DNA of 64,000 nt. Source: Streptomyces sp. NBC_01231. GTDB taxonomy: Bacteria > Actinomycetota > Actinomycetes > Streptomycetales > Streptomycetaceae. Below are positions 18,800 to 54,134 of this stretch, in pieces. Position 1 is the stretch's first letter, and each line of letters opens with the position of its first letter. The translations under genes and the position numbers were made by a program. Location of the stretch: assembly GCA_035999765.1 (NCBI GenBank), contig CP108521.1:744001-808000 (forward strand), in the 5' to 3' direction. The notes under the pieces were generated by a model. That model did no database searches, was not told where the DNA came from, and saw only the letters and a program-made list of their open reading frames with translations.

Positions 18800-20512
18800 T
18801 CAGTGCGACTCGCGGCTCACCTCGGAACCGCTGGAGCCGACCAGGAAGTCGAGATCGGCGCCGGTGTCGGCTTGGAGGACGTGGTCGACGTAGAGACGTT
18901 CCCAACCGCGGCGAGGGGTGGCGAAACCTGTGACGGTGGCCTCGTCGGGGGTTCTGCGGGCGAGTTCGTCGGCCGGCACGTCGGCCTCTATACGGCGGGC
19001 CTCGACGTCGAGGGTGATGAAGTCGCCGGTGCGTACGAGGGCGAGGGGCCCGCCTGCCGCGGCTTCCGGCGCCACGTGCAGGACGACGGTGCCGTAGGCG
19101 GTGCCGCTCATCCGGCCGTCGCAGACCCTGACCATGTCACGGACACCCTGCTCCAGCAGCTTCTTCGGCAGGGGCATGTTCGACACCTCGGGCATGCCCG
19201 GGTAGCCCTTGGGGCCGCAGCCCCGCAGGACGAGGACGGAGTCGGCGTCCACGTCGAGCTCGGGGTCGTCGATGCGGGCGTGGAAGTCCTCTATGGAGTC
19301 GAAGACGACCGCCCGTCCGCGGTGGCGCAGCAGGTGCGGAGAGGCGGCGGCCGGCTTGATGAGGGCGCCGTCGGGAGCGAGGTTGCCCCGCAGGACGGCG
19401 ATGCCCCCTTCGGCGACCAGCGGCTCGGCGCGGGTGCGGATGACCTCGCTGTCCCAGATCGGGGCGTCGTCGAGGCCGTCCACCAGCGGTTTTCCGGTGA
19501 CGGTCAGAGCGTCCGGGTCCAGCAGGTCGCGTATCTCGCGCAGCACGGCGAGCAGGCCACCGGCGCGGTGGAAGTCCTCCATGAGGAAGCGGCCGGCCGG
19601 TTGGAGGTCCGCCAGGACCGGTACGCGGGAGCCGATGCGGTCGAAGTCGTCGAGCGACAGGTCGATGCCGAGCCGGCCCGCGATCGCCAGGAGGTGGACG
19701 ACCGCGTTGGTCGAACCGCCGATGGCGGCCAGCGCCACGATCGCGTTGTGGAAGGACGCCTTGGTCAGGAACGTCGCGGGCCGCCGGTCCGCGCTCACCA
19801 TGTCCACCGCCAGCCGGCCGGTGTGGTGCGCGGCCTCCAGCAGACGGCTGTCGGGGGCGGGCGTACCGGCCACCCCGGGGACGACCGTGCCGAGCGCCTC
19901 CGCCACCAGCGCCATGGTCGAGGCGGTGCCCATGGTGTTGCAGTGCCCGCGGCTGCGGATCATCGACGACTCTGACCTGGTGAACTGCTCCTGGGAGAGC
20001 GTGCCCGCCCGCACCTCCTCCGACAGCTGCCACACACCGGTGCCACAGCCCAACAGGCCGCCGCGGAAAGTGCCGTTGAGCATCGGGCCGCCGGGGACCA
20101 CGACCGCGGGAAGGTCCACCGAGGCGGCGGCCATGAGCAGGGAGGGGATCGTCTTGTCGCAGCCGCCGAGCAGGACGACGCCGTCGATGGGGTTGGCCCG
20201 CAGCATCTCCTCGGTGGCCATGGCGGCCATGTTGCGCCACAGCATCGCGGTGGGTCGCACCTGCGTCTCGCCCAGCGACACGACCGGCAGGTCCAGCGGG
20301 ATCCCGCCCGCCTCGTACACGCCGTTGCGAACCGAGGCCGCCACCTCGTTCAAGTGCGCGTTGCAGGGGGTCAGGTCCGAGGCCGTGTTGGCGATGGCTA
20401 TCTGCGGTCGGCCGGTGAAGGAGTCCCCCGGCACACCCCTGCGCATCCAGGCTCGGTGGATGTAGGCGTTGCGGTCCTGACCCGCGTACCACTGGTCGCT
20501 TCGGAGCCCCAC
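18800..20512 (-). CDS. IlvD/EDD-family sugar-acid dehydratase
   Basis: About 570 residues; I chose GTG 20512 because GAAGAGG precedes it by 6 nt and the product then starts VGLRSDQWYAGQDRNAYIHR, as in sugar-acid dehydratases. Fe-S ligands and metal site are visible: TASDLTPCNAHL, VLLGGCDKTIPS, SRGHCNTMGTAST and LRGCGPKGYPGMPE, with the C-terminal VCDGRMSGTAYG swivel-domain signature. This branch includes L-arabonate, D-xylonate, D-galactonate and L-fuconate/L-rhamnonate dehydratases rather than the branched-chain enzyme. It would convert an aldonate to a 2-keto-3-deoxy acid. It is divergent from the IclR gene with only 49 bp between starts and pairs functionally with the FAH and zinc dehydrogenase genes. 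Confidence 0.85.
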   Translation of the reverse strand: MGLRSDQWYAGQDRNAYIHRAWMRRGVPGDSFTGRPQIAIANTASDLTPCNAHLNEVAASVRNGVYEAGGIPLDLPVVSLGETQVRPTAMLWRNMAAMATEEMLRANPIDGVVLLGGCDKTIPSLLMAAASVDLPAVVVPGGPMLNGTFRGGLLGCGTGVWQLSEEVRAGTLSQEQFTRSESSMIRSRGHCNTMGTASTMALVAEALGTVVPGVAGTPAPDSRLLEAAHHTGRLAVDMVSADRRPATFLTKASFHNAIVALAAIGGSTNAVVHLLAIAGRLGIDLSLDDFDRIGSRVPVLADLQPAGRFLMEDFHRAGGLLAVLREIRDLLDPDALTVTGKPLVDGLDDAPIWDSEVIRTRAEPLVAEGGIAVLRGNLAPDGALIKPAAASPHLLRHRGRAVVFDSIEDFHARIDDPELDVDADSVLVLRGCGPKGYPGMPEVSNMPLPKKLLEQGVRDMVRVCDGRMSGTAYGTVVLHVAPEAAAGGPLALVRTGDFITLDVEARRIEADVPADELARRTPDEATVTGFATPRRGWERLYVDHVLQADTGADLDFLVGSSGSEVSRESH

Positions 20513-20561
20513 CTGGAACCTCTTCCAGCAGTCGGTACGGCGGTCTAGAGTCTGGAACATC

Positions 20562-21386
20562 ATGAAGCATACGCAGACGGACTACGGACCGACAGCCCCC
20601 GACGAGGACGGCCCGGCAGGTGCCGACGGCGCCCGGCTCGTGGGCTCGGACCGGGTGCTCGCGGTCCTCAAGGAACTCGCGCGACATCCCGGCGGCGTCG
20701 GCCTGGAGGAACTGACCCGGGCGATCGCCAGCCCCAAGCCGACCGTGCACCGGGCGCTCGGCGCCCTGCGCCGGGCCGGGCTGGCCGACCAGGACGCCCG
20801 TGGCCGCTATGTGCTCGGGGACGAGTTCCTGCGCATGGCCTTCGCGCACCACGAGGCCCGCCCCGAGCACGTCCGCGTCCGCCCCGTACTCGACGCACTG
20901 GCGCACCGGTTCGGCGAGACGGCCCACTACGCGGTCCTCGACGACCGCGAGGTCGTCTACCGCGCCAAGGTCGACCCGCCCAGCGGCGCCGTCCGGCTGA
21001 CCTCGACGATCGGCGGACGCAACCCCGCCCACACCACGGCAGTGGGGAAGCTGCTGCTCACACGGCAGTTGGACTCCTTGGGCGAGGTCGAGAAGTGGGT
21101 CGGTGACTCCCCGCTCGAGCGCCGGACACCCCGAACGCGGTGCACTGCCGTCGACCTCCATCGGGAACTGACAGCCACCCGTGAACGCGACTACGGCGTG
21201 GACGACCAGGAGAACGAGAACGGGGTCAACTGCCTTGCCCTGCCCGTCTATCTGACCTCACCGACCACTCCCTCCGGAGCCGTGAGCATCAGCGCGCTCG
21301 CCTACCGCACCCCCCTGGCGTCCCTCATCGACGCGCTCGATGAGATCCGCGTCCTCCTCGGCCCTCTCGGGGAACCGCACAGCTGA
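20562..21386 (+). CDS. IclR-family regulator of the sugar-acid genes
   Basis: 274 residues. The N-terminal winged HTH (VLAVLKELARHPGGVGLEEL, SPKPTVHRALGALRRAGL) is followed by the IclR effector domain (YRAKVDPPSGAVRLTSTIGG, PAHTTAVGKLLL, YGVDDQENENGVNCLALPV, GAVSISALAYR). It sits between the divergent dehydratase and the codirectional FAH hydrolase, the usual place for a local regulator of a sugar-acid pathway. No Shine-Dalgarno is seen before ATG 20562; a TAGAGT hexamer ends 9 nt upstream, so a leaderless or very short 5' leader transcript is possible. Confidence 0.85.
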   Translation: MKHTQTDYGPTAPDEDGPAGADGARLVGSDRVLAVLKELARHPGGVGLEELTRAIASPKPTVHRALGALRRAGLADQDARGRYVLGDEFLRMAFAHHEARPEHVRVRPVLDALAHRFGETAHYAVLDDREVVYRAKVDPPSGAVRLTSTIGGRNPAHTTAVGKLLLTRQLDSLGEVEKWVGDSPLERRTPRTRCTAVDLHRELTATRERDYGVDDQENENGVNCLALPVYLTSPTTPSGAVSISALAYRTPLASLIDALDEIRVLLGPLGEPHS

Positions 21387-21435
21387 CGATCCGCCCAGAA
21401 CCACCACCTCACGCCCCAACCCTGGAGAGAGACCC

Positions 21436-22296
21436 GTGTACCTCATGCGCATCGGCGCCCCCGGCGCCGAGAAGCCCGTCGCCCGCATCGACGACGAGAC
21501 CTACGTCGACCTCTCCGATGTCGTCACGGACTTCGACGAGGCGTTCTTCGGCTCCGGCGGCATCGACCGCGTCCGTCCTCTCGTGGCAGAGCGGGCCGAC
21601 GCAGGTCAGGCGTCGCGCTTCGCCGGAGAGCGCGTCGGCGCCCCGATCGCGCGCCCGCACCAGATCCTGTGCATCGGGCTCAACTACCGTGACCACGCGG
21701 CCGAGAGCGGCATGCCCGTCCCCGACGAGCCGATCCTGTTCACCAAGTCACCCAACACCTTGGTCGGCCCGCACGACGACGTGCGCATACCGCGCGGCTC
21801 CACCAAGACCGACTGGGAGGTCGAGCTCGGCATCGTCATCGGCCGCCGCACCAGCTACCTCGACTCGGTGGAGGAGGCCCGCGACGCCATCGCCGGATAC
21901 CTGGTCGTCAACGACGTCAGCGAGCGCGCCTTCCAGTTGGAGCGCGGCGGCCAGTGGGCCAAGGGCAAGTCCGCCGAGACCTTCAACCCCGCCGGTCCTT
22001 GGCTGGCCACCACCGACGAGATCGACGACGTCCTCGCCCTGGACATGTGGCTGGACGTCAACGGGGTCCGCCGGCAGACCGGCAGCACCAAGACGATGGT
22101 CTTCGATCCGTACGTCATCGTGCACTACCTGAGCCAGTTCCTCGTCCTGGAGCCGGGCGACCTCATCAACACCGGCACCCCGCCCGGAGTCGGCATGGGC
22201 CTCACCCCGCCCGTCTACCTCCAGCCCGGAGACGTGATGGAACTGGGCATCAGGCAGCTCGGCACGCAGCGTCAACACGTCCTGGCTCCCCGGTGA
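21436..22296 (+). CDS. Fumarylacetoacetate-hydrolase-family enzyme (2,4-diketo-3-deoxy sugar-acid hydrolase candidate)
   Basis: 286 residues from GTG 21436 with GGAGAGAG upstream. FAH-domain motifs are ILCIGLNYRDHAAESGMPVP, LFTKSPNTLVGPHDDV, DWEVELGIVIGR (metal-binding Glu pair), NDVSERAFQLERGGQWAKGK and GDLINTGTPPGVGMG. Members beside sugar-acid dehydratases hydrolyse 2,4-diketo-3-deoxy-L-fuconate or -rhamnonate to pyruvate plus lactate. Its stop overlaps the next gene's GTG (GTGA), so the dehydrogenase is cotranslated. The precise substrate is an inference from neighbours. Confidence 0.85.
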   Translation: MYLMRIGAPGAEKPVARIDDETYVDLSDVVTDFDEAFFGSGGIDRVRPLVAERADAGQASRFAGERVGAPIARPHQILCIGLNYRDHAAESGMPVPDEPILFTKSPNTLVGPHDDVRIPRGSTKTDWEVELGIVIGRRTSYLDSVEEARDAIAGYLVVNDVSERAFQLERGGQWAKGKSAETFNPAGPWLATTDEIDDVLALDMWLDVNGVRRQTGSTKTMVFDPYVIVHYLSQFLVLEPGDLINTGTPPGVGMGLTPPVYLQPGDVMELGIRQLGTQRQHVLAPR

Positions 22297-23342
22297 GCGG
22301 TGGCCGCATACACGCCTTCGTGCTGACCGCCCCCGGCGCGTACGAGGTCCAGGAGATCCCGGCACCGGTGGCCCGACGCGGCGAGGTCGTCGTCGACGTC
22401 GAACGGGTCGGCGTGTGCGGCACCGACATGGAGTTCTTCACCGGTGAGATGGCCTACCTCCACCAAGGCCACTCCTCCTACCCGATGCGGCCGGGCCACG
22501 AGTGGGCCGGCCGCGTCGCCGTCGTCGGCGAGGGTGTCGACCGCGGCTGGCTCGGCCTCCGCGTCATGGGCGACACCATGCTCGGCTGCGGTACCTGCCG
22601 CCGCTGCCTGCGCGGCCACCAGCATGTGTGCGAGAAGCGGAGCGAGGTCGGCATCCGCGGAGCGCAGCCCGGCGCCCTTGCCGAGCAACTGGCCGTGCCT
22701 GTCTCCTCGTTGCACGCCTTGCCCGATTCCGTCGACGCCGTGCTCGGAGCGCTCGTGGAACCGGGCGGCAACGCCCTGCGCGCCGCGCGGGCCGCCGCCC
22801 CGCGGGCCGGGGACCGAGCGCTGGTCCTGGGCCCGGGGACCATCGGCGTGCTGGTCGCGATGTTCCTGCGCGCGTCCGGTGCCGAGGTGCACCTGATGGG
22901 CACCACCGAAGGCTCTCTCGCCTTCGCCCGCGGTCTGGGCTTCGATCACGTGTGGGCGCAGGACTCCGTCCCGGACCTGCCCTTCGACGCGGTGGTGGAC
23001 GCCACGAACGCCGCCCAACTCCCCGCGACGGCACTGGAACTCGTCGAACCGGGCGGCCGCCTCGTCTGCATCGGGCTGGCGGGCGAACCCAGCCGCATCG
23101 ACACCCGCGCCCTCGTCCTCAAGGACGTGACCGCCGTAGGTGTCCTGTCCGCCTCCCCCGGCCTCGACGCCACCATCCGCGCGTACGCCGACGGATCGGT
23201 CGACCCCCGGCCGCTCGTCGCGGCCACCGTGGGCCTCGACGAGGTCGGCTCCGTCCTCGCCGGGGAACGCCCTGCGGACGCGGGGCCCGGTCCCAAGATC
23301 CACGTCGATCCCCGATCGAGTGCGGCGAGCACGGCTTCATGA
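22293..23342 (+). CDS. Zinc-dependent medium-chain dehydrogenase
   Basis: 349 residues from GTG 22293. Catalytic zinc ligands are in VGVCGTDMEFF and MRPGHEWAGRV. The structural zinc loop CGTCRRCLRGHQHVC has all four cysteines. The nucleotide fold is ALVLGPGTIGVLVAMFLRA. It belongs to the threonine/sorbitol/glucose dehydrogenase side of the MDR superfamily. Overlapping the FAH hydrolase gene, it is the natural candidate to oxidise C4 of a 2-keto-3-deoxy sugar acid, making the diketo acid that the hydrolase splits. In characterised fucose/rhamnose routes that step is usually a short-chain dehydrogenase, so an MDR here would be unusual. Confidence 0.85.
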   Translation: MSGGRIHAFVLTAPGAYEVQEIPAPVARRGEVVVDVERVGVCGTDMEFFTGEMAYLHQGHSSYPMRPGHEWAGRVAVVGEGVDRGWLGLRVMGDTMLGCGTCRRCLRGHQHVCEKRSEVGIRGAQPGALAEQLAVPVSSLHALPDSVDAVLGALVEPGGNALRAARAAAPRAGDRALVLGPGTIGVLVAMFLRASGAEVHLMGTTEGSLAFARGLGFDHVWAQDSVPDLPFDAVVDATNAAQLPATALELVEPGGRLVCIGLAGEPSRIDTRALVLKDVTAVGVLSASPGLDATIRAYADGSVDPRPLVAATVGLDEVGSVLAGERPADAGPGPKIHVDPRSSAASTAS

Positions 23343-23425
23343 GAACCGGGAGCGGTTCAGCACGCCGCCGCAACCGGGAGTAGTTCAGCACGACGCCGGT
23401 CCCGGAGGGCCGGGCCCTCGTCGGA

Positions 23426-24280
23426 TCATCCCGTCCCGTACCCACCGCCCGACAGGGTCCGCAGCGCCGAGGTCACGGCGTCGGCCATCGCCCGGCGCGC
23501 CGTGGTGAGGGCCGGCCGGGGGTCGACCGTCGCGGGTGCCGCGGCGAGTGTGTCGCGGACCGCGCCGGTGAAGGCGGCGTTCAGTGCCGTACCGATGTTG
23601 ATCTTGACCATGCCGGCCGCCACCGCCTGCCTGAGCTCCGCGTCGGGCACGCCCGTCGAGCCGTGCAGGACCAGCGGTACGGGGACCGCCTTGGCGAGGC
23701 GGGCGATGAGATCGTGGTCCAGCCGGGCGGTGCGCGTGGTCATCGCGTGAGAGCTGCCGACCGCGACGGCCAGGGCGTCGACACCGGTGGCGGACACGAA
23801 GTCGCGCGCCTGATCGGGGTCCGTACGTGCCGAGGGCGCGTGTACTCCGTCCTTGCCACCGATCTCGCCGAGTTCCGCCTCCAGCCACAGCCCCTGGGCG
23901 TGTGCCCACTGCGCCGCGGACCGCGTGGCGGCCACGTTCTCGGTGTGGGGCAGCGCGGACGCGTCGAACATGACGGATCCGAAGCCGCAGTCCGCGGCGC
24001 GTCGCATCAGCGCTTCGTCGGTGACGTGATCCAGGTGCAGGGCCACGGGGACGGTGGCGGACTCGGCGAGCGCGGCGGTGGCGCGGGCGATCGGGGCGAG
24101 CCGGTTGCCGTGGAACCGCACGGCGTTCTCGCTGATCTGGCAGATGACCGGGCGGCCCGCGGCTTCCGCCCCCGTGACAACGGCCTCGGCGTGCTCCAGG
24201 GTGATCACGTTGAACGCGCCGACGGCCCGTCCGTCGCGGTAGGCGGAGCTCACCACGTCGGCGGTGGGAGTCAGTGGCAC
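23426..24280 (-). CDS. Class II fructose/tagatose-bisphosphate-type aldolase
   Basis: 284 residues from GTG 24280, with GGAGGG 5 nt upstream. Zinc-site and catalytic motifs are VALHLDHVTDEALMRRA (two His and Asp), WLEAELGEIGGKDG, VPLVLHGSTGVPD and MVKINIGTALNAAF. It groups by pattern with GatY/KbaY-like enzymes that cleave tagatose-1,6-bisphosphate or fructose-1,6-bisphosphate. Divergent from the DeoR regulator (188 bp) and near the SIS isomerase and sugar importer, it likely finishes a hexose or hexosamine phosphate pathway in the cytosol. Confidence 0.85.
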   Translation of the reverse strand: MPLTPTADVVSSAYRDGRAVGAFNVITLEHAEAVVTGAEAAGRPVICQISENAVRFHGNRLAPIARATAALAESATVPVALHLDHVTDEALMRRAADCGFGSVMFDASALPHTENVAATRSAAQWAHAQGLWLEAELGEIGGKDGVHAPSARTDPDQARDFVSATGVDALAVAVGSSHAMTTRTARLDHDLIARLAKAVPVPLVLHGSTGVPDAELRQAVAAGMVKINIGTALNAAFTGAVRDTLAAAPATVDPRPALTTARRAMADAVTSALRTLSGGGYGTG

Positions 24281-24377
24281 GGTCGCCCTCCGATCGCGGC
24301 GTACGACGGCCGCGACGACGCCAGGGACAGCGGCAGGGACACCGGCGAGGGCTCGCGGGATGTGCAGGGTTTTGCTC

Positions 24378-24407: not shown

Positions 24408-24468
24408 GCTGTGGTTTCATGGAGGTGCGCATATCGTCGCGCACACCACGAACGGGGAGTTGTGAAAC

Positions 24469-25257
24469 ATGGCGGCACCGCAGGCCCGGTGGAGCTCGCT
24501 GCTGGAGATGCTGACGCGCGACGGCCGGATCGAAGTCGAACCGGCTGCCGAGGAGTTGCGGGTCTCCGCCGCGACGATCCGGCGCGACCTCGACGAGCTG
24601 GCCCGTCAGCAGATGGTCACGCGCACGCACGGCGGAGCCGTGCTCAACGCGATCGCCTATGACCTGCCGCTGCGCTACAAGGCCGCGCGCAACGCTCCGG
24701 AGAAGGAGCGGATCGCGCACGCGGCCGCCGGGCTGGTGAAGGCCGGTGCCGTGGTGGGGTTGAACGGCGGCACCACGACCACCGAGGTGGCGCGGGCGCT
24801 GGCCACCCGCGCGGACCTGAGTTCCGGCGGCGCGGAGACGGCGGTCACCGTGGTGACCAACGCCCTGAACATCGCCAACGAGCTGGTCGTACGGCGCCAC
24901 GTCAAGCTCGTGGTGACCGGCGGGGTGGCCCGGCCGGCGTCCTATGAGCTGATCGGGCCGCTGGCCACCGAACTGCTCGCGGAGATCGCGCTGGACCAGG
25001 TCTTCATCGGAGTGGACGCCATCGACGTGGCCCACGGGGCGACCGCCCACCACGAGGGCGAGGCAAGCATCAACCGGGCGCTGGCCCGCCGCGCGCAGCA
25101 GGTCGTGGCGGTCGCCGACTCCTCCAAACTGGACCGGCGGGCCTTCGCCCGCATCTGCCCGGTGGAGGACATCGACGTCCTGGTGACCGACAAGGCCGCC
25201 TCGGACGAACTGACCGAGTCGTTCGCGGCGGCCGGCGTGGAGGTCATCCGCGCCTGA
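24469..25257 (+). CDS. DeoR-family sugar regulator (AgaR/GlpR-like)
   Basis: 262 residues. The N-terminal DeoR HTH is LLEMLTRDGRIEVEPAAEEL followed by VSAATIRRDLDELARQQMVTRTHGGA. The C-terminal sugar-phosphate-binding domain has VGLNGGTTTTEVARAL, VVTNALNIANELV, VVTGGVARPASYELIGP, VFIGVDAIDV and VVAVADSSKLDRRAFA. The effector is probably a sugar phosphate produced by this locus. It sits between the aldolase and the ABC importer, which it likely represses together with itself. Confidence 0.88.
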   Translation: MAAPQARWSSLLEMLTRDGRIEVEPAAEELRVSAATIRRDLDELARQQMVTRTHGGAVLNAIAYDLPLRYKAARNAPEKERIAHAAAGLVKAGAVVGLNGGTTTTEVARALATRADLSSGGAETAVTVVTNALNIANELVVRRHVKLVVTGGVARPASYELIGPLATELLAEIALDQVFIGVDAIDVAHGATAHHEGEASINRALARRAQQVVAVADSSKLDRRAFARICPVEDIDVLVTDKAASDELTESFAAAGVEVIRA

Positions 25258-25319
25258 CACCGCGCGCCCCTCCCGTACCGGCCCCCGCGACAGCCCCGGC
25301 TCCGACGCGGATCCCGGCG

Positions 25320-28434: not shown

Positions 28435-28456
28435 GGAGTACCTCTCCGCACGCATG

Positions 28457-28516
28457 GCGTGCTTGTTCACAGCGCGTGCTCGCCTGATTGCGTGCTCGCT
28501 TGCTTGTTTATGCTCG
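28457..28516. promoter_or_regulatory. Phased direct repeats, candidate DeoR-type operator for the importer operon
   Basis: GCGTGCTT at 28457, GCGTGCTC at 28474 and 28490, and a weaker TATGCTC near 28509 recur every 16-18 bp. They lie between the importer genes (minus) and the SIS gene (plus). DeoR/AgaR-class repressors commonly bind direct repeats. The closest copies share GCGTGCTCGC exactly. Confidence 0.5.
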
Positions 28517-28630
28517 ATTCTTAGTGCTATCAATCATCTAACGACATGATGCTCAATGAAACGCGCACGGTGTCAAGGGTCGACACATCACGTATCGGTC
28601 ACACCGTGCGCCCGAGAGGGGAGTTCCCCG

Positions 28631-45556: not shown

Positions 45557-47704
45557 GTGTCCAGACGGCTTGAACACCTGCGGGGGCACCGAAGATTCGC
45601 GGTCCTTGCCACAGCGTTGGCGGCCACGGTGGCAGCCCTGCTTCCAGTGGCGCCGGCCGCGGCCGAGACCACACCGCAGGGGTGGACGGGGACGTGGGCG
45701 ACCGCCCAGCACGCCGCGTACGACCCGGGCACCTCGGAGGTGACGGTTCGGATACCGGTGCGGGTGAGCGCCGGCGGGTCGAGCGTGCGCATCCGCCTGA
45801 CCAACGACTTCACCACCGAGCCGGTGACGATCGGACACGCGACCGTCGGACTTCGTGATGGCGGTTCCGCCGTCGCGAAGCCGCAGAAGCTGCGGTTCGG
45901 CGGGAAGAGCGGGGTGACGATCGCGGCCGGCGAGCAGGCGGCCAGCGATCAGGTCCAGCTCACCGTGCCCGCCCGCAGCGACCTGGTCGTCAGCCTGTAC
46001 TTCCCCGGCCGGCTCACCCACATCAGCCAGCACTGGATGGGCCTCCAGACGGTCTACTGGACGCCCGACGGCGGCGGCGACCACGCCTCCGACGCCGACG
46101 GGGACGCCTTCACGAAGACCGATTCCACCTTCCCGTTCCTGACCGGTGTCGACGTACAGGGCGGCAACGCGGCGGGCGCCGTGGTGGCGCTCGGCGACTC
46201 CATCACCGACGGCGCGGCCTCCACCTCGAACGCCAACCGGCGCTGGCCCGACTATCTGGCGGGCCGGCTGTCGGCCTGTTCGTCCACCGCCGGGGTGCTG
46301 AACGAGGGGATCAGCGGCAACCGGATCACGGCGGGCGTGGACGGCAACCCGTCGGCGCTGGACCGGCTGGAGCGCGATGTGCTGTCGCAGCCGGGCGCCC
46401 GGACGGTGGTCCTGTTCGAGGGCGTCAACGATCTCAGCTGGGGCGGCGCCACCGGTGATCAGGTGATCGACGGCATGAAGGAGATCGTGCGCCGCGCCCA
46501 CGAACGCGGGCTGCGCGTGATCGGCGCGACGGTCGTGCCGTATCGCGGCTGGGGCGACTGGTGGACCGAGGCCAAGGAGGCCGACCGGCAGAAGGTCAAC
46601 ACGTTCGTCCGCGACGGCGGCGTCTTCGACGGCTACGCCGACTTCGACAAGGCCGTTCGGGACCCGGACGACCCCACCCGCTACGCCGCAGCGTTCGACT
46701 CCGGTGACCATCTGCACCCCAACGACGTCGGGATGAAGGCCTTCGCCGACGCCGTCGACCTCACCACGCTCGGGGCGGGCCGCGACTGCCCGACGGCCCG
46801 CGTCCGGATCACCCCGTACCGGCCGACCCTGCAAGCCGGCGGCGACGGCACGGCGATCACGTCGACCGTCACCAACACGGGTACCAAAGCGGTCACCGAG
46901 GTCAGCACGCGTCTCGATCTCCCCGACGGCTGGTCCGCCGAACCGGCCGGCAGCACGCGGGTACGCTCCCTCGCCCCGGGCGACAGCGCCAAGGTCACCT
47001 GGACGGTGACGCCGGCGGCCGACGCGGTCTGGGGCACCCACGAGATCGGCGTACGCACCTCCTTCGTCCAGGACGGCCGGACACGGCACGACTCCGACAG
47101 TGTGGACGCCACGGTGACCCCGGCTCCGTCCGAGGTGCGGGCGCCGTATCTGACGACCGCCACCACGACCGAGAAGGCCCAATACGCCCAGAACGGCGAC
47201 CAGTTCGCCATCTGGGCGGGCGGCCAGGACCTGTCCGGCTGGAAGGACGAGAAGGCGGCGGTCTACCTCGCCGACGCCGCGCCGCCGTCCGGCACCGTGA
47301 CCGCCCGGGTCGTCGGTCAGACCGGCAGTGGCCCGTCCGCCAAGGCGGGGATCGCCGTGGCCAACGACCTCACCTCGCCTCAGGCGGGCGGCTACGCGGT
47401 GCTCACCATGTCCGCGCAGTACGGCCTGGAGTTCATGACCGACAGCGACGGTGACGGGAAGCTCGACACCTGGGCCGGGGGCGGCAGTTCGTACCACCCG
47501 GCCTGGCTGAAGATCGTCCGCGACGGCACCGCCTACACCGCGTACGCCAGTTCCGACGGCACCGCCTGGCAGCAGGTCGCCACCGCCACCGTTCCCTCCG
47601 CGAGCGGCACCGGCGACGCAGGTCTGGTCGCGAGCGCGGTCAACCTCAACTACCCCGGCCAGATCACGACCGCACTTTTTGACTCCTTCTCCACCCAAGA
47701 GTGA
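45557..47704 (+). CDS. Secreted SGNH/GDSL esterase with NEW3 and C-terminal lectin-like module
   Basis: 715 residues from GTG 45557 (AGGAGG 5 nt upstream). Signal peptide ~1-35. The first ~410 residues are a paralogue of the preceding gene (SSVRIRLTNDFTTEPVTIGH, VVALGDSITDGAASTSNANR, LFEGVNDLSWGG, SGDHLHPNDVGMKAF). A NEW3 domain follows (ITPYRPTLQAGGDGTAITST) and then the DUF1349-like module (QYGLEFMTDSDGDGKLDTWA). Fifty-eight bases of the module (47198-47255) are identical to 32392-32449 of the GH31 gene. Its TGA overlaps a GTG, but the next gene more likely starts at ATG 47716. Confidence 0.85.
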   Translation: MSRRLEHLRGHRRFAVLATALAATVAALLPVAPAAAETTPQGWTGTWATAQHAAYDPGTSEVTVRIPVRVSAGGSSVRIRLTNDFTTEPVTIGHATVGLRDGGSAVAKPQKLRFGGKSGVTIAAGEQAASDQVQLTVPARSDLVVSLYFPGRLTHISQHWMGLQTVYWTPDGGGDHASDADGDAFTKTDSTFPFLTGVDVQGGNAAGAVVALGDSITDGAASTSNANRRWPDYLAGRLSACSSTAGVLNEGISGNRITAGVDGNPSALDRLERDVLSQPGARTVVLFEGVNDLSWGGATGDQVIDGMKEIVRRAHERGLRVIGATVVPYRGWGDWWTEAKEADRQKVNTFVRDGGVFDGYADFDKAVRDPDDPTRYAAAFDSGDHLHPNDVGMKAFADAVDLTTLGAGRDCPTARVRITPYRPTLQAGGDGTAITSTVTNTGTKAVTEVSTRLDLPDGWSAEPAGSTRVRSLAPGDSAKVTWTVTPAADAVWGTHEIGVRTSFVQDGRTRHDSDSVDATVTPAPSEVRAPYLTTATTTEKAQYAQNGDQFAIWAGGQDLSGWKDEKAAVYLADAAPPSGTVTARVVGQTGSGPSAKAGIAVANDLTSPQAGGYAVLTMSAQYGLEFMTDSDGDGKLDTWAGGGSSYHPAWLKIVRDGTAYTAYASSDGTAWQQVATATVPSASGTGDAGLVASAVNLNYPGQITTALFDSFSTQE

Positions 47705-47715
47705 GAGGCATGTTG

Positions 47716-49164
47716 ATGCCAGTCAACCGCAGACACTTCATGACCACCGCTGCCGCCCTCGGTGGCGCGGTGCTGCTCGCCCCGCCCGGCACCGCCCAGG
47801 CGCTCACCCAGGGTGCGACGCTCGACGCCTCCGGCATCCCCGACTACCAGCCCACCAAGGCGTCCCTCGACACCCACCCGGTGCCGCGCTGGTACAAGGA
47901 CGCCAAGTTCGGCATCTTCGTCCACTGGGGCATCTACTCGGTGATCGGCGGCGCGACACCGAGAAGCGCCTCCGAGTGGTACCTGTGGTACCAGAGCACC
48001 AAGGACACCGCCGAGTGGAAGTACCACCGCGACACCTACGGCGAGGACGTCACCTACGACGACCTCATCCCCCAGTTCAAGGCCGAGAAGTACGATCCTG
48101 ACGCCTGGGTGAAGCTGTTCGAGCAGGCGGGCGCCGAGTACTTCGCGCTGACCAGCAAGCACCACGACGGATTCGCCCTCTACCCGAGTCAGGTGACGGA
48201 CCGTCACTCCGTGGCGTACGGCCCGAAGCGTGACCTGGTCGGCGAGTTGATGACCGCGGCCCGCAAACGAGGCACCGTGCGGCCAGGGCTGTACTACTCG
48301 CTCGGCGAGTTCTTCAACCCGGCGATCGGCCGGCCGATGCGCAACTTCTACACCGACCAGGAAATCCCGATGACCGGCTACAAGCCGGTCCAGGACTACG
48401 TCGGCGACTACGAGCTCAAGCAGCTGTACGAGATCATCGACCGCTACGACCCGGAGCTGCTCTGGGCCGACGGTCAGTGGTTCCGGCCCGCCGACAACCC
48501 GCCGTGGCGCAGCGAGGAACCCATGGCCCACTACTACAACCAGGCCAAGAACCGTACGCGCCCCAAGGGTGTCGTGATCAACGACCGGTTCGACACCCAC
48601 TTCGACTTCGCGACGTACGAGCAGCGCACCAATCCCACGATGGATCCCCAGAAGTGGGAGTGCTGCATGACCATCGGCTACTCCTGGGGCTACAACAAGC
48701 ACGAGCCGGACGAGGACTACAAGACCTCCGAGTTCCTGATCCAGTTGCTCGCCGACGTGGTCAGCAAGAACGGCAACCTGCTGCTCAACATCGGCCCCAA
48801 GCCGGACGGCACGATCCCCGAGATCATGCAGGAGCGGCTGAAGGACATCGGCGCCTGGCTGAACGTCAACGGCGCCGCGATCTACGGGTCGACGCCATGG
48901 GTGCGGGCGGAGGAGGAGGGCAGTGCGCTCGGCATCCGCTACACCGTCTCCCCGGGCAAGTTCAACATCATCGTGCTCGGCAAGCCCAGCGGCACCCTCT
49001 CGGTGCCCGGCGACATCCCCATCAGCGCCACGTCCCGGGTGCGGCTGCTCGGCACGAGCGGCAGCCTGCGGTGGACCCGCGGTGACGGAAAGATCAACAT
49101 CACCGTCCCGTCCTCCGTGCCCAGCGACATCGCCAATGTCTTCACCGTCGACTGGGCCCGGTGA
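47716..49164 (+). CDS. Tat-exported GH29 alpha-L-fucosidase
   Basis: 482 residues from ATG 47716, chosen because GAGAGG lies 7 nt upstream; GTG 47701 and ATG 47710 also fit the frame. The Tat-like signal is VNRRHFMTTAAALGGAVLLA. GH29 motifs are PRWYKDAKFGIFVHWGIYSV, YFALTSKHHDGFALYPS, KRDLVGELMTAARKRG, nucleophile Asp252 in PELLWADGQWF and NGNLLLNIGPKPDGTIP. It removes alpha-linked L-fucose from glycans outside the cell. The stop overlaps the GTG of the next ORF (GTGA). Confidence 0.9.
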   Translation: MPVNRRHFMTTAAALGGAVLLAPPGTAQALTQGATLDASGIPDYQPTKASLDTHPVPRWYKDAKFGIFVHWGIYSVIGGATPRSASEWYLWYQSTKDTAEWKYHRDTYGEDVTYDDLIPQFKAEKYDPDAWVKLFEQAGAEYFALTSKHHDGFALYPSQVTDRHSVAYGPKRDLVGELMTAARKRGTVRPGLYYSLGEFFNPAIGRPMRNFYTDQEIPMTGYKPVQDYVGDYELKQLYEIIDRYDPELLWADGQWFRPADNPPWRSEEPMAHYYNQAKNRTRPKGVVINDRFDTHFDFATYEQRTNPTMDPQKWECCMTIGYSWGYNKHEPDEDYKTSEFLIQLLADVVSKNGNLLLNIGPKPDGTIPEIMQERLKDIGAWLNVNGAAIYGSTPWVRAEEEGSALGIRYTVSPGKFNIIVLGKPSGTLSVPGDIPISATSRVRLLGTSGSLRWTRGDGKINITVPSSVPSDIANVFTVDWAR

Positions 49165-50114
49165 GCGGCATGGGAATCAGCAGCGGTACCCAGTTCGACA
49201 CCCTGGGCCCCACCCTCACCGTCACCACGCAGCCGGCCGAGCCGACCGGCGGTGACACGGTCACCGCCACCGCGGTCCTCACCAACGACTGCCCCTTCCC
49301 ACTCAGCAACGCCGTGCTCCATCTGATCAACCCCGGCGCCACCACGGCGGCGAAGACCATCCCGCTCGGCGACCTGCCGCGCGGCGCGAAGACAACCCGG
49401 CGCTGGGAGACGGCGATGCCGGCCGACGTGGCCGGGGACGTGTCGTTCACCGCGCACCTCGTCTTCGACGTCGACGAGAACAGCAGCGACTGCGCGCGGT
49501 CCGTGAAGACGTTCACGGTGCCTTACGAGCCCAATGAGGTGCGGGACCCGTACCGGACATTCGCCACCACCGACGACGCCAAGTTCGGCCAGTACGGCAG
49601 CCAGTTGGTGATCTGGGCGGGTGGCAGCGACTTCTCCGGCGGCACCGACGAGAAGGGGGGCATCCTCCTTCCCGGCTCCGCCGCCGAGTCGAGCGTGGTG
49701 CAGGTCGAGACGGTCAGCCTCACCGGAAGCGACAACCCCACCGCCAAGTACGGGATCGCCGTCGCCAACGACCTCACCGCCCCGGAGAAGGGCGGCTACG
49801 CCGTGCTCACCATGTCGAAGTCGTACGGCGTGGAGTTCATGACCGACAGCGACGGCAACGGACACCTCGACACCTGGGCAGGCGGCGGCGTTTCCACCCA
49901 TCCCGCCTTGCTGCGCCTGGTCCGCTCCGGCACCACCTACACCGCGTACACCAGCATCAACAACGGCCTCTCCTGGAACGAGATCGCGAGCGCGACCGTG
50001 CCCTCCGCGAGCGGCGCCCTGGACGCGGGCGTGGTGGCGAGCGCCGTGAACCTCAACTACCCCGGCACGACGGTCCAGGCCGTGTTCGACCACTTCACCG
50101 TGGTGGCGTCGTGA
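49161..50114 (+). CDS. Signal-less NEW3 plus lectin-like accessory protein
   Basis: 317 residues from GTG 49161 (ATG 49170 possible). There is no hydrophobic leader: the N-terminus is SGMGISSGTQFDTLGPTLTV. Residues ~15-125 form a NEW3-like domain (DTVTATAVLTNDCPFPLSNA). Residues ~130-317 are the DUF1349-like module (YGVEFMTDSDGNGHLDTWAG, SASGALDAGVVASAVNLNYP). No catalytic domain. It is coupled by a 4-nt overlap to the fucosidase upstream and to the next ORF downstream. It may be a binding subunit co-exported with the Tat substrate GH29, or the split tail of a once longer fucosidase. Confidence 0.7.
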   Translation: MSGMGISSGTQFDTLGPTLTVTTQPAEPTGGDTVTATAVLTNDCPFPLSNAVLHLINPGATTAAKTIPLGDLPRGAKTTRRWETAMPADVAGDVSFTAHLVFDVDENSSDCARSVKTFTVPYEPNEVRDPYRTFATTDDAKFGQYGSQLVIWAGGSDFSGGTDEKGGILLPGSAAESSVVQVETVSLTGSDNPTAKYGIAVANDLTAPEKGGYAVLTMSKSYGVEFMTDSDGNGHLDTWAGGGVSTHPALLRLVRSGTTYTAYTSINNGLSWNEIASATVPSASGALDAGVVASAVNLNYPGTTVQAVFDHFTVVAS

Positions 50115-51016
50115 TCGCCTACCGTCCCGAGGAGGACTTCCTCTCGCCGCCCGTATCGCTCACCGTCACTCCGTCCGCACTCGAGGCCGGCAAGGCCGTG
50201 ACCCTGACGGCCACCCTCACCAACACCGCCACGATCACGCTGCGCGGCACCGTGCTCTACCTCGCCGTGGACGACTCCGCCGAACAGGACGGCCTGGGCG
50301 ACCTCGCGCCCGGACGGTCGGTGACCCGCACCTGGCGGACCCGGCTCGCCGACGACGCGGAGGGCCGGATCCTGTTCACCGCGCACGCCCTCTTCGACGT
50401 GCACCCGCACGGCTCCGACTGCACCCGCACCTCCTCCTCCGCCCTACTGCCGTACCGCTCGTTGGCCGCGGCGTTCGACAACGCGGGGATCTCCACCGAG
50501 GACGCCCTCACCGTCGCGAACATCGACGGGTCGAACTCCAGTCTGTCCGCCGAGGCGCTGGCGTCGGTGGGGCTGGCTCCGGGGGCCACGGTCACCTACG
50601 ACGGGGTGCCCTTCACCTGGCCGGACACCCGGCCCGGGAGCAAGGACAACGTCATCTCCTACGGCCAGACCGTGCTGCTGTCCGGCTCCGGTTCCCGGTT
50701 GTCCTTCCTCGGTACCAGCACGTGGGGCGACGGCAAGGGTGACGGCAAGGTCGTCTACGCCGACGGCACCGAGCAGGCGTTCTCGGTCGCCGTCCCCGAC
50801 TGGTACGGCGCGAACTCCTCCGCCGCGGTGGTGCTGCCCTACCGCCACATCAGCTCCGGCCGGGACGACAACCCCGTCAGCCTGTTCACCTTCGGCGTCG
50901 ATCTCGCGGCCGGCAAGGAGCTGGGCTCCGTGGTCCTGCCCAAGGTCAGCGACGGCATCCAGGCGGGCGCCCCGGCCCTGCACATCTTCGCCTTGACGAT
51001 CACGCCGATCAACTGA
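50111..51016 (+). CDS. Signal-less NEW3 plus beta-sandwich accessory protein
   Basis: 301 residues from GTG 50111, overlapping the previous stop (GTGA). N-terminus IAYRPEEDFLSPPVSLTVTP without a leader peptide. Residues ~15-115 form a NEW3-like domain (AGKAVTLTATLTNTATITLR). The rest is a beta-rich domain with DNAGISTEDALTVANIDGSN, SAEALASVGLAPGATVTYDG, FTWPDTRPGSKDNVI and YRHISSGRDD, which I know as a tail domain on several actinomycete glycosidases. No catalytic residues recognised. Same puzzle as its neighbour: a secreted-type domain with no export signal. Confidence 0.7.
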   Translation: MIAYRPEEDFLSPPVSLTVTPSALEAGKAVTLTATLTNTATITLRGTVLYLAVDDSAEQDGLGDLAPGRSVTRTWRTRLADDAEGRILFTAHALFDVHPHGSDCTRTSSSALLPYRSLAAAFDNAGISTEDALTVANIDGSNSSLSAEALASVGLAPGATVTYDGVPFTWPDTRPGSKDNVISYGQTVLLSGSGSRLSFLGTSTWGDGKGDGKVVYADGTEQAFSVAVPDWYGANSSAAVVLPYRHISSGRDDNPVSLFTFGVDLAAGKELGSVVLPKVSDGIQAGAPALHIFALTITPIN

Positions 51017-51035
51017 GCTCTGCGGAAGGACGTTC

Positions 51036-54000
51036 ATGCACGACAACCGAGACCACCTCGGCATCACAGGTGTCACCCGCAGACGGATCCTCACCGGCGC
51101 CGTCGTGCTGGGCGGCGCCGCGCTGCTGCCCCTCCCGCAGGGCGCGTACGCGGCCGACGGCACCCTGTTCGACACCGCGCCCGCGGCGGCCGCTGTGAAG
51201 CGGCTGCTTCCCGACCACTACCAGCAGCTCACCCTGCGGGCCGTCAACGACAAGACCGACCGCTTCCGGGTCACCGGCCGGGCCGGACGGATCACGGTGG
51301 AGGGCACCAGCGCCGCCGTGCTGCTCGCAGGCCTCCACACCTACCTGCGGCGGACCGCGCACGCCTCCGTCTCCTGGACGGGCGAGCAGTTGAACCTGCC
51401 GCGCACCCTCCCCGCGCCCGCCGCGGAGATCACGGGAACGGCCAACGTGCCGCACCGCTTCGCCTTCAACGACACCAACGAGGGCTACACCGGCGCCTAC
51501 CGCGACTGGGACGCCTGGCAGTACGAGCTGGACGTGCTGGCCGTGCACGGAGTCAACCGGGTCCTCGTCTACATGGGCGGCGACGCCGTCTACTACGACA
51601 CGTTCCGTCAGTTCGGCTACACCGACGCCGAGATGCGCGCCTGGATCCCGGCCCCCGCCCGCCAGCCCTGGTGGCTGCTGCAGAACATGTCGGGCTTCGG
51701 CGGGCCCGTCTCCCGGCAGCTCATCGAGAAGCGTGCCGCGCTCGCCGAGAAGATCACCGACCGGATACGTGACCTGGGCATGACGCCGGTCCTGCCGGGC
51801 TACTACGGCAGCGTCCCGGACGACTTCCCCGCCAAGCACGGCGGGGACGCGGCGGTGGTGGCGCAGGGCACCTGGGGCGCCTTCAAACGCCCCGACTGGC
51901 TCGACCCGCGCACCACGGCCTTCGAGGACGTGGCCGCCGCCTTCTACCGTGCCCAGAAGGAACGATTCGGCGAGAGCACGATGTACAAGATGGACCTGCT
52001 GCACGAGGGCGGCAACGCCGGTGACGTGCCGGTGGGCGAGGCTGCCAAGGCCGTCGAGGTGGCCCTGCAGAAGGCCCACCCGGGGGCCGTCTGGGCGATC
52101 CTCGGCTGGCAGAACAACCCGGCCAAGGAACTGCTCGACGGCGTCGACAAGAGCCGGATGCTGATCGTGGACGGCCTGTCGGACCGCTACACCACCGTCA
52201 CGGACCGGGAGAGCGACTGGGGCGGCACCCCGTACGCCTTCGGCAGCATCTGGAACTTCGGCGGCCACACCCCGATCGGCGCCAACGCCCCGGACTGGGT
52301 GGACCAGTACCCCAAGTGGCGTGACAAGAAGGGCAGTGCGCTCGCCGGTATCGCGGCGATGCCCGAGGGGGCCGACAACAACGCGCCCGCCCTGGCCCTC
52401 CTCACCGACCTGGCCTGGACGCCCGGCACCGTGGACCTGGACGACTGGTTCGCCGCGTACGCCCTCTCCCGCTACGGCGGCCCCGACCGGCATGCGGCGG
52501 CGGCCTGGCAGACGATCCGCGACACCGCGTACAACATGTCCCGCGCGGACTCCTGGAGCGAGGCACCCGACGGACTGTTCGGCGCCCGTCCGAGCCTGAC
52601 GGCGAACAAGGCCGCCGCCTGGGGGCCGGAGAAGGACCGCTACGACACCACGGCGTTCGACGCGGCACTCACCGAACTCCTGGCGGTACAAGCGGGGTTG
52701 AGGGACAGCTCGGCCTACCGGTACGACGTCGTCGACGTGGCCCGGCAGGTCCTGTCCAACCGCAGCCGGGTCCTGCTGCCGCAGATCAAGGCCGCACACG
52801 ATGCCGGGGACAAGGCCCTGTTCGGCAAGCTGACCAAGACCTGGCTGAGCTGGATGGACCTCCTCGAGGACCTGCTGGCGACCTCCGGCCAGCATCTGCT
52901 CGGGCGGTGGCTCGCCGACGCGCGCTCCTGGGGCGCCGACCGGGCCGAGAAGGACCGCCTCGAGTACGACGTCCGCTCCCTCATCACCACCTGGGGCGGA
53001 CGCGAAAGCAGCGAGGAGGGCCTGCACGACTACGCGAACCGGGAGTGGTCCGGACTGGTCGGCGGCCTGTACCGCACCCGCTGGCAGACGTACTTCAATG
53101 CGCTCACCACGGGAAAGGACCCTGCGACGATCGACTGGTTCGCCCTGGAGGACCGCTGGGCGCACGCACACGAGACGTACCCGACCGATCCCCACGGCTC
53201 CCCGTACGCCCTGGCCCGCAGCGTGCGCGACCTGCTCGCCGCCACTCCGTACCAGGCGGCCCTCACGGCGGGTGTCGACCGGGGAGCGGTGGCCGAGGGC
53301 ACGCCCGCGACGGTGACGGTCACCTTCACCAACAGGAACGGGTTCACGGCGGCACGCGGCGTGAACCTTTCCGTCACCGCCCCCGAGGGCATGGCGGTGA
53401 CGGCGCTCGATCCGGTGAGCAAGGCGTCGGTGGCTTCCGGCGAAACGTTGGTCGCTCGCTTCGAGGTCTCTCTGGCGGGTGCGCCTTCGGAACTGGTCGG
53501 CCAGGTCGTCGCGGCGGCGGTGTACGCGGGTGGCGGAAAGGTCGTGGCGCCGGTACGGCTGATGGCCGCGGCCGGGGTCGGTGACCCGTACCGCACGGTC
53601 TCCTACAACGACGCGGTGTTCGGCCAGGCCGGCGACGAGATCGCCATCGAGGGCGCGGGGGCCGACCTGTGGGCCGGCACCAACGAGTTCGGGGCGGTGT
53701 ACCGGGCGGGCGGGTACAAGGACGGAACGGTGGCCCAGGTCACGGTCACGTCCCAGGACGCGTCCGGGGGCTGGGCACGGGCGGGCGTCATCGTCCGCAA
53801 CGACCTGGGCACCCAGGGGACCGCGGGCTATGTGAACCTGGCGATCACACCGTCCAACGGCTGTGCACTGAGCTGGGACGCGGACGGTGACGGCCGTTTC
53901 GACTCGATCGAACAGTCGGGCTCCTTCACCGCGCCGGTGCGGCTGCGGCTGACCAGGTCCGGCGCCTCGTACATCGGTGAGGCCAGCACGGACGGCGTCA

Positions 54001-54134
54001 CCTGGACCACAGTGGGCACGGCCACACCGGGAGGCACGGCCGCCGCACAGGACGTCGGGGTCTTCATGACCGCGGCCAACGGCTGGACCGACGGACGGGG
54101 CATCGCCACGTTCGACGGATTCACGGTGACCTGA
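51036..54134 (+). CDS. Tat-exported GH89 alpha-N-acetylglucosaminidase with NEW3-like and lectin-like modules
   Basis: 1032 residues from ATG 51036 (GGAAGGA upstream). Tat signal TRRRILTGAVVLGGAALLPL. The N-terminal domain ~45-135 is followed by the NAGLU barrel: FAFNDTNEGYTGAYRDWDAW, YELDVLAVHGVNRVLVYMGG, catalytic Glu324 in MYKMDLLHEGGN and Glu444 in AAMPEGADNNAP, with WNFGGH between them. An all-helical region ~460-745 follows, then NEW3-like (~750-835) and the DUF1349-like module (CALSWDADGDGRFDSIEQSG). GH89 cleaves terminal alpha-GlcNAc, known from heparan sulfate and from alpha-1,4-GlcNAc-capped mucin O-glycans. Last gene of the glycosidase run. Confidence 0.87.
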   Translation: MHDNRDHLGITGVTRRRILTGAVVLGGAALLPLPQGAYAADGTLFDTAPAAAAVKRLLPDHYQQLTLRAVNDKTDRFRVTGRAGRITVEGTSAAVLLAGLHTYLRRTAHASVSWTGEQLNLPRTLPAPAAEITGTANVPHRFAFNDTNEGYTGAYRDWDAWQYELDVLAVHGVNRVLVYMGGDAVYYDTFRQFGYTDAEMRAWIPAPARQPWWLLQNMSGFGGPVSRQLIEKRAALAEKITDRIRDLGMTPVLPGYYGSVPDDFPAKHGGDAAVVAQGTWGAFKRPDWLDPRTTAFEDVAAAFYRAQKERFGESTMYKMDLLHEGGNAGDVPVGEAAKAVEVALQKAHPGAVWAILGWQNNPAKELLDGVDKSRMLIVDGLSDRYTTVTDRESDWGGTPYAFGSIWNFGGHTPIGANAPDWVDQYPKWRDKKGSALAGIAAMPEGADNNAPALALLTDLAWTPGTVDLDDWFAAYALSRYGGPDRHAAAAWQTIRDTAYNMSRADSWSEAPDGLFGARPSLTANKAAAWGPEKDRYDTTAFDAALTELLAVQAGLRDSSAYRYDVVDVARQVLSNRSRVLLPQIKAAHDAGDKALFGKLTKTWLSWMDLLEDLLATSGQHLLGRWLADARSWGADRAEKDRLEYDVRSLITTWGGRESSEEGLHDYANREWSGLVGGLYRTRWQTYFNALTTGKDPATIDWFALEDRWAHAHETYPTDPHGSPYALARSVRDLLAATPYQAALTAGVDRGAVAEGTPATVTVTFTNRNGFTAARGVNLSVTAPEGMAVTALDPVSKASVASGETLVARFEVSLAGAPSELVGQVVAAAVYAGGGKVVAPVRLMAAAGVGDPYRTVSYNDAVFGQAGDEIAIEGAGADLWAGTNEFGAVYRAGGYKDGTVAQVTVTSQDASGGWARAGVIVRNDLGTQGTAGYVNLAITPSNGCALSWDADGDGRFDSIEQSGSFTAPVRLRLTRSGASYIGEASTDGVTWTTVGTATPGGTAAAQDVGVFMTAANGWTDGRGIATFDGFTVT

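Follow-up and report, generated by a model that had tools for sequence, protein, structure and literature searches.

We analyzed a 64,000-nucleotide window of the single-contig, 11.34 Mb genome of Streptomyces sp. NBC_01231 (G000:C1:744001-808000; coordinates below are window positions unless a contig is named) and conclude that it contains a conserved, patchily distributed Streptomyces locus of predicted secreted glycosidases. Within this locus, a glycoside hydrolase family 29 (GH29) alpha-L-fucosidase without a binding module is followed by two overlapping genes, N1 and N2, which encode putative modules of this kind and lack signal peptides. The full account that we propose, of an animal-type-glycan locus containing a split fucosidase whose N1 and N2 parts would be exported as hitchhikers on the twin-arginine translocation (Tat) pathway, seems to us evenly balanced between right and wrong. 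For the specific idea of a three-part fucosidase, conserved in at least 24 genomes, in which signal-less, coupled modules would assemble with GH29 in the cytoplasm and ride out on it, we judge the chances slightly poorer than even.

The order of the locus is a DeoR-family regulator, a CUT1 importer, an SIS-domain protein, and then GH31a-GH123-GH35a(-GH35b-GH31b)-SGNH-SGNH-GH29-N1-N2-GH89. With GH123 as query, 392 genomes of the genus gave 17 matches at E <= 1e-10; partial matches of 31-33% in G058 and G150 were left out of the counts, and full-length GH123 is present in 15/392 genomes, the source genome included. GH31a adjoins it in all 15. Contigs in GTDB yielded 40 GH123 loci, comprising 27 from Streptomyces/Wenjunlia, 1 from Rhodococcus rhodnii, 2 from Bacillota, and 10 from Bacteroidota. 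GH31a is the upstream neighbor in 26 of the 27 Streptomyces/Wenjunlia loci, and the remaining locus (L048) has a contig end immediately before it. This pairing exceeds chance. The flanks of GH123 were compared in the 14 other genomes with the full-length gene, 13 of which reach past DeoR upstream. On that side, DeoR is present in 13/13 and the importer in 9/13, with remnants in two more; the class II aldolase is whole in six and partial in one. Downstream (n = 14), GH35a, GH29, N1, and N2 each occur in 13 flanks, SGNH2 (once in two pieces) and GH89 occur in all, and GH35b and GH31b are each whole in four. GH31a-GH123 is the invariant core, and GH35a is nearly so. The IlvD/IclR/FAH/MDR set that borders the locus in the window was found beside it in 0/13 other genomes (tblastn, E <= 1e-12, up to 15.5 kb from GH123; one flank ends at 12.2 kb). 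From these flank counts we conclude that the core is real and that the "fucose catabolism" set is a neighbor. An earlier sequence-only reading of the window had proposed a gene-neighborhood search across Streptomyces, which has now returned a conserved locus. It had also described a dehydratase/dehydrogenase/FAH set with an IclR regulator; these genes are indeed present and adjacent, the dehydrogenase being a zinc-type MDR, but they lie outside the conserved locus, and the claim that fucose catabolism is encoded alongside is not supported. Genome G269 has two equal-scoring GH123 copies placed mirror-symmetrically on an 11.54 Mb contig (C1:549226-551094 and C1:10989736-10991604), as if its locus lay in terminal inverted repeats.

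The evidence for a split fucosidase begins with the genes themselves. Between GH29 (47701..49164; Pfam, solved-structure comparison, motif) and the alpha-N-acetylglucosaminidase GH89 (51036..54134; Pfam, motif, solved-structure comparison; with its own NEW3 module) lie two conserved open reading frames (ORFs) that had been overlooked, N1 (49161..50114) and N2 (50111..51016). All four are on the forward strand. The third-position G+C of N1 and N2, 0.95, matches the level of their neighbors. N1 comprises an immunoglobulin (Ig)-like and a DUF1349-like, lectin-type domain (sequence comparison, overlaps, fold model), and N2 an Ig-like and a second domain (sequence comparison, overlaps); both start straight with the Ig-like domain, and both are proposed GH29 subunits. 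Among 24 genomes with distinct GH29 DNA, counted after removal of loci that repeat a genome, a 4-nucleotide NTGA overlap joins the GH29 stop to the N1 start in 24/24. N1 and N2 overlap in frame in 20 of the 21 genomes with N2 in view, the remaining one being apparently frame-shifted. Three loci (L046, L052, L074) were dropped as N1 carriers, their match being an SGNH2::N1 hybrid or an SGNH2 tail (L052 was judged from its N terminus). Two other origins of the split were rejected. A sequencing error dividing one gene is not compatible with the same split in 24 genomes. Programmed -1 frameshifting joining GH29 to N1 is disfavored, as no canonical slippery heptamer was seen by eye at the window junction and the last GH29 codons vary across genomes while the NTGA overlap stays.

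The signals differ between these genes. Twin arginines occur within the first 25 residues of GH29 in 24/24 and of GH89 in 16/16 distinct genomes, and in a wider, partly redundant set in 31/31 and 21/21; in that set the motif was found in 0/26 GH31a, 0/39 GH123, 0/46 GH35a, 0/11 GH35b, and 0/20 SGNH1 sequences. A loose form also appears in 14/17 GH31b and 5/22 SGNH2 sequences, which we do not read as good Tat signals. The motif is absent from N1 (0/26) and N2 (0/25). In a 15-residue hydropathy window over the first 40 residues, N1 does not exceed 1.35 nor N2 1.05, and every GH29 reaches at least 1.57. The sequences hold two marks of a Tat hitchhiker system, a twin-arginine carrier (GH29, 24/24 by motif) and signal-less partners encoded alongside it.

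Median ratios of nonsynonymous to synonymous substitution (dN/dS) against the window copy are 0.23 for GH29, 0.33 for N1, 0.46 for N2, and 0.32 for GH89. Two cysteines are invariant in N1 (23/23), a pair that would suit a disulfide outside the cell. N1 also tracks GH29: both are present in 13 of the 14 fetched genomes, and both were lost from the 14th by a deletion that fused SGNH2 to the N1 tail. This last is a decaying locus copy (L074, G338), with GH29 removed and an in-frame stop in GH89. Two Wenjunlia loci keep GH89, with neither N1 nor GH29 in view. N2 proteins have a conserved N-terminal YRPEEDFL-type peptide before the Ig-like domain (50111-50160), possibly a docking peptide.

Relatives elsewhere provide further evidence. 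Among the matches listed from the 392 genus genomes, every N1 match of 77% or more sits in this locus, and all 15 distant relatives that we read are parts of larger ORFs (GH89 by similarity, GH27-like by eye, and one other kind). In G279, SGNH2 is in two pieces, and its tail stands as its own 332-aa frame. N2 relatives occur in 262/392 genomes at E <= 1e-8. Thirty of these were read among the matches listed. Larger ORFs contain 14 of them, SGNH proteins by similarity and GH27-, GH3-, GH20-, or protease-like ones by eye; the other 16 are free-standing, and each has its own signal. Two of the 16 signals are Tat-type, on proteins that stand beside GH109; the other 14 are hydrophobic N-terminal signals (15-residue hydropathy 1.79-2.33), and the gene upstream of 12 of these is GH109-like by eye and has a twin-arginine motif. 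Free-standing N2-type proteins are common GH109 partners, and among those read the signal is missing only in the N2 of this locus. The signals on its relatives support the suggestion that this N2 may travel by hitchhiking. The recurrent pair of a twin-arginine GH109-like gene and a free-standing N2-type protein with a Sec-like signal was seen in 12 Streptomyces-genus genomes (L172-L176, L179-L185); its N2-type member is perhaps a secreted GH109 accessory protein. As for GH29, its nearest relatives in 246 genomes of the class (E <= 1e-80) occupy 12 loci outside this one. All 12 carry further modules in cis, whereas the GH29 of this locus has none and the modules stand in separate ORFs. Eight have C-terminal additions, confirmed as NEW3 by Pfam in both of those tested and otherwise recognized by similarity or by eye. 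The remaining four, all from Streptomyces, consist of a Tat-type signal, an N2-type domain (33-35% identity, E 1e-17 to 1e-21), a spacer, and GH29, and one of them is encoded in the source genome itself (C1:713250-714653).

Domains that are fused in some relatives and split in others usually still cooperate, and the Tat pathway exports folded proteins. In Streptomyces, the tyrosinase MelC2 rides on the Tat-tagged MelC1, according to extracts of two papers (PMC2758597, PMC5853079). Because the domains are fused in relatives, because Tat carries folded cargo, and because MelC2 sets a precedent, we infer from sequence that N1 and N2 form a complex with GH29 and leave the cell with it. The steps would be as follows. 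Outside the cell, secreted enzymes would break down animal-type glycans that are neutral and fucosylated and bear beta-GalNAc (GalNAc, N-acetylgalactosamine) and alpha-Gal, and the products would be imported by the CUT1 transporter under an AgaR-like DeoR regulator. GH29 would provide the Tat-type signal, and N1 and N2 would separately supply the Ig-like and lectin-type modules that it lacks. The 4-nucleotide start-stop overlaps would couple translation of the three genes; N1 and N2 would then bind folded GH29 in the cytoplasm and pass through Tat with it.

The probable glycan source was read from the other glycosidases. Every gene family named in the sequence-only reading was recovered by Pfam in its place: two GH31, one GH123, two GH35 each with an NPCBM domain (presumably CBM51-type), two SGNH/GDSL enzymes, GH29, and GH89, along with the CUT1 importer, DeoR, SIS, class II aldolase, IlvD/EDD dehydratase, FAH hydrolase, and IclR. 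Signal peptides and overlaps were used to choose new starts for four genes (GH35a 34920, GH35b 38573, GH31b 42298, SGNH1 44327), the mechanical ORFs being longer. All the enzymes that follow are on the forward strand. GH123 (33055..34923; PF13320, E 4.7e-91), a predicted beta-N-acetylgalactosaminidase, has an adjacent Asp-Glu (DE) pair, which we take to be catalytic, in 33/33 unique sequences; its closest solved structures are the beta-GalNAcases 5l7r/5l7v (E 5e-75), and also 5fqe. GH89 matches 2vc9 (5e-116), presumably the C. perfringens enzyme, better than 4xwh (2e-73), presumably human NAGLU. Both GH123 and GH89 resemble host-glycan enzymes. The closest structure to GH29 is 1hl8, which we take to be from Thermotoga. 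GH35a (34920..38576; Pfam, solved-structure comparison) is closest to 1tg7 and other beta-galactosidase structures, presumably fungal-type, and GH35b (38573..42298; Pfam) is a second predicted beta-galactosidase. The esterases SGNH1 (44327..45547; Pfam, solved-structure comparison) and SGNH2 (45557..47704; Pfam, alignment; NEW3 and DUF1349-like module) have solved SGNH hydrolases as matches, among them one labeled acetylxylan esterase, at no better than 3e-5.

The two GH31 enzymes bear most directly on the substrate. GH31a (29884..32898; Pfam, solved-structure comparison, active-site positions), predicted to be secreted and ending in NEW3 and a DUF1349-like C-terminal module, and GH31b (42298..44316; Pfam, solved-structure comparison, alignment) both match best to MYORG and to chains titled GH31 alpha-galactosidase; xylosidases score lower. 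Extracts of the MYORG study (PMC9491548) give its galactose-binding and catalytic residues, state that GalNAc would need a hydrophobic pocket where two arginines sit, and report that MYORG itself does not cleave Gal-alpha1,4-Gal. Nine MYORG positions (W321, D353, D354, W426, K461, D463, R504, R517, D520) are kept in GH31a in 20/20 unique sequences, and the nucleophile, acid/base, and galactose-binding residues of a MYORG-type alpha-galactosidase are all present. GH31a therefore looks like an alpha-galactosidase, not an alpha-GalNAcase, at low similarity to characterized alpha-galactosidases (roughly 30% by eye). The alpha-GalNAcase assignment was rejected, since both MYORG arginines are kept in 20/20 at the place where an N-acetyl pocket would be needed. 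In GH31b, EE replaces D353/D354 in 12/12 unique sequences, and R504 is kept in 11/12; this IEE for IDD, at the galactose 4-OH/6-OH positions, perhaps confers another specificity.

The company that GH123 keeps elsewhere was also informative. A Virgibacillus relative (L055, 48% identical) lies near GH101, a BNR protein, and GH112. In Rhodococcus rhodnii (L050), GH29-PA14, GH123 (65% identical), GH89, GH42, importer genes, and LacI occur together; this species lives as a gut symbiont in bugs that feed on blood, a habit that would be in keeping with animal glycans. A flavobacterium (L058) has GH29 beside two GH123 genes. Less telling are Scopulibacillus (L056), with a different GH31 (DUF5110, F5/8) beside GH123 and unrelated genes around, and three Bacteroidota loci read in part, with a second GH123 copy and/or Sus-type genes; six of the ten Bacteroidota loci were left out of this reading. 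Together, the GH123, GH89, and GH31 comparisons and these loci favor animal-type glycans containing N-acetylhexosamine (HexNAc), with mucin not singled out.

The sequence-only reading had taken the locus for a mucin O-glycan forager with fucose and galactosamine catabolism alongside. What stands is a locus dedicated to fucosylated glycans that are galacto-configured and contain HexNAc, supported by the kinship of GH123 to 5l7r/5l7v/5fqe and of GH89 to 2vc9, the GH101/GH112 context in Virgibacillus, and the GH109 of a Streptomyces sister locus described below. The strict mucin version we consider unlikely. In its favor are the joint presence of GH29, GH35, GH123, GH89, and NPCBM domains, the Virgibacillus context, and the match of GH89 to 2vc9. 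Against it, GH31a is alpha-galactosidase-like, with arginines where a GalNAc pocket would be needed, and GH101 and GH109 gave 0 matches in the source genome under conditions that detected positive controls (GH129, GH27, and GH36 were not searched), so that core GalNAc removal is not encoded by these two families. The unlinked IlvD/FAH/IclR set in 13 other genomes and the below-cut-off AgaS and AgaR assignments count against it as well. That the locus should act on desialylated material only is too strong, because a sialidase-type BNR_2 gene lies elsewhere in the genome (G000:C1:9186551-9187561), far from the locus, with none among the locus ORFs scanned.

Equally doubtful, at the same low level of probability, is a diet of glycolipid-type or invertebrate glycans, for example a globo-type chain with fucose caps, on which GH29, GH35, GH123, GH31a, and GH35b would act in succession. 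The globo sequence is GalNAc-beta-Gal-alpha-Gal-beta-Glc, and enzymes like 5l7r presumably act on glycosphingolipid glycans. The kinship of GH31a to alpha-galactosidases and MYORG and the invariant GH31a-GH123 core, with its nearly invariant GH35a, suit this substrate. Its weak points are the distance of GH31a from characterized enzymes, the lack of a ceramidase-type gene among the ORFs scanned, and GH89, for which we know of no place in globo-series chains. A further one is the failure of MYORG to cleave the Gal-alpha1,4-Gal linkage, as extracts of its description record (PMC9491548).

Several observations weigh against our account of an exported, three-part fucosidase. GH89, also Tat-type, could be the carrier. 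Signals were called by motif and hydropathy alone, and the hydropathy ranges overlap when a 13-residue window is run over 60 residues (N1 0.98-2.14, N2 0.88-1.95, GH29 1.46-1.88), this shorter window reaching strands inside the first domain of N1 and N2. N1 has no Pfam match and N2 only a weak one to CARDB; the N1 fold model, all-beta and in two parts, is weak (mean pLDDT, the predicted local distance difference test, 62.8), and solved-structure and NCBIfam searches with N1 and N2 returned nothing informative. N2 is looser than N1: G391 lacks it, G307 (L070) has a copy whose start is apparently frame-shifted, and the GH29-less G338 still has it. Most free-standing N2 relatives adjoin a GH109-like gene rather than GH29, which weakens a simple fission history. 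Of the four Streptomyces GH29 fusions, one has a spacer that matches NEW3, below cut-off. Since neither GH101 nor GH109 turned up in the genome, mucin core removal is unexplained.

Some of these points would suit N1 and N2 that stay in the cytoplasm, for instance to bind imported oligosaccharides, or that are remnants of decayed modules. The missing signal peptides are what such proteins should show, as are the faster evolution of N2 and its missing or apparently frame-shifted copies in two genomes. Set against this are open frames and exact overlaps across 24 genomes (L035 is cut by its flank), the dN/dS of N1, its two invariant cysteines, which would suit an extracellular disulfide, and the extracellular-type character of the N1 and N2 relatives read. 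We rate cytoplasmic or remnant proteins improbable, at about one chance in four. That the locus serves a polymer of plants or fungi (xyloglucan or fucogalactan) is very improbable: GH31, GH35, and GH29 also occur in xyloglucan loci, the SGNH enzymes have their acetylxylan esterase match, and several host species bear scab-streptomycete names, but both GH31s score best with MYORG and alpha-galactosidases, no endo-glucanase is among the ORFs scanned, and we know of no role for GH123 or GH89 in such loci.

On the uptake side, the locus has a DeoR-family regulator (24469..25257, forward; Pfam, NCBIfam), whose best NCBIfam match is AgaR at 208.6 bits (cut-off 260), and on the reverse strand the CUT1 permeases B (25320..26207) and A (26204..27169) and a solute-binding protein (SBP; 27175..28455), all three by Pfam. 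The SIS-domain sugar isomerase/deaminase (28631..29530, forward; Pfam, NCBIfam) had been called AgaS-like; the domain is confirmed, but the AgaS identity is not clear, with GlmD as best NCBIfam match at 85.9 bits and AgaS at 33.2 bits against a cut-off of 529.2, both far below cut-off. No GalNAc-6-P deacetylase (AgaA) was found among the locus ORFs scanned, the search being confined to these. Promoter-like footprints (TTGACA, GAGCAT-type) before GH31a (29531-29883) and SBP (28456-28630) are conserved across species. The GAGCAT-type element common to the regions upstream of GH31a, SBP, and DeoR is weak, and because the derived motif matches 3/10 sequences tried, we claim no operator. The class II ketose-bisphosphate aldolase (23426..24292, reverse; Pfam, NCBIfam) lies next to DeoR. 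Adjacent in this genome only are an arabinonate-dehydratase-type IlvD/EDD sugar-acid dehydratase (18800..20563, reverse; Pfam, NCBIfam, synteny) and, on the forward strand, IclR (20562..21386; Pfam, synteny), an FAH hydrolase (21340..22296; Pfam, NCBIfam; best match 2,4-didehydro-3-deoxy-L-rhamnonate hydrolase, below cut-off), and the zinc-type MDR dehydrogenase (22299..23342; NCBIfam). Elsewhere in the window, a Castor/Pollux-type ion channel with a TrkA-N domain (12856-14904; Pfam) precedes the locus, and an adenosine deaminase, IclR, family 3 SBP, two permeases, and a PfkB kinase follow it (54825-61681) with no sign of belonging. Composition and tRNA scans of the window gave nothing informative.

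If the account is right, Tat hitchhiking, for which extracts of the literature give hydrogenases, formate dehydrogenases, PaoABC, and tyrosinase as examples, would extend to carbohydrate enzymes, binding modules could be supplied in trans, and secretome lists based on signal peptides would overlook proteins located outside the cell. Four piggy-back candidates appear in one annotated S. lividans list, as an extract shows (PMC5853079). The locus also offers a way to test whether Streptomyces feeds on animal-type glycans, and so bears on habitat. The sequence-only reading held that no such Streptomyces locus had been described. In a full-text literature search, with subscription journals mostly outside it, no paper among the matches listed dealt with this locus or with glycosidase modules that hitchhike through Tat. 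Yet mucin-type GH families were catalogued across Streptomyces genomes in a 2022 survey, the word GH123 not appearing in the extracts of its text (PMC9120202), so that Streptomyces use of mucin sugars is not a new idea. The conserved locus and its split, possibly hitchhiking fucosidase do appear to be new.

Comparison with known systems places the locus among relatives. Like MelC1/MelC2, as extracts describe that pair (PMC2758597), the GH29 unit would be one operon with a Tat signal on the upstream gene and signal-less partners downstream; there the helper MelC1 carries and the enzyme rides, whereas here the enzyme would carry and the binding modules ride, with no cofactor known. GH31a shares nine active-site positions with MYORG and the bacterial GH31 alpha-galactosidases (7qqf, 8j50-8j53), but is set apart by its low identity and by a Glu aligned by eye with D213, and GH31b has EE for D353/D354. 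The Streptomyces GH109-GH20 sister locus (L125, G200:C1:78000-97900; L126, G063:C1:7960500-7980400) contains DeoR, a CUT1 importer, GH20, a twin-arginine GH109, a free-standing N2-type protein, and a second GH20. Its DeoR is 58% and its SBP 40% identical to ours, and it too pairs a Tat-type glycosidase with a neighboring N2-type protein; unlike in our locus, that protein has its own Tat-type signal, and the enzymes belong to GH109 and GH20. The Virgibacillus GH101-GH112-CUT1 locus (L055) likewise sets extracellular glycosidases, including the related GH123, beside a CUT1 importer. Unlike it, the Streptomyces locus has no GH101, GH112, GH20, or BNR gene among its ORFs, and is distinguished by its GH31a-GH123-GH35 core, its SGNH pair, and its GH29-N1-N2 unit.

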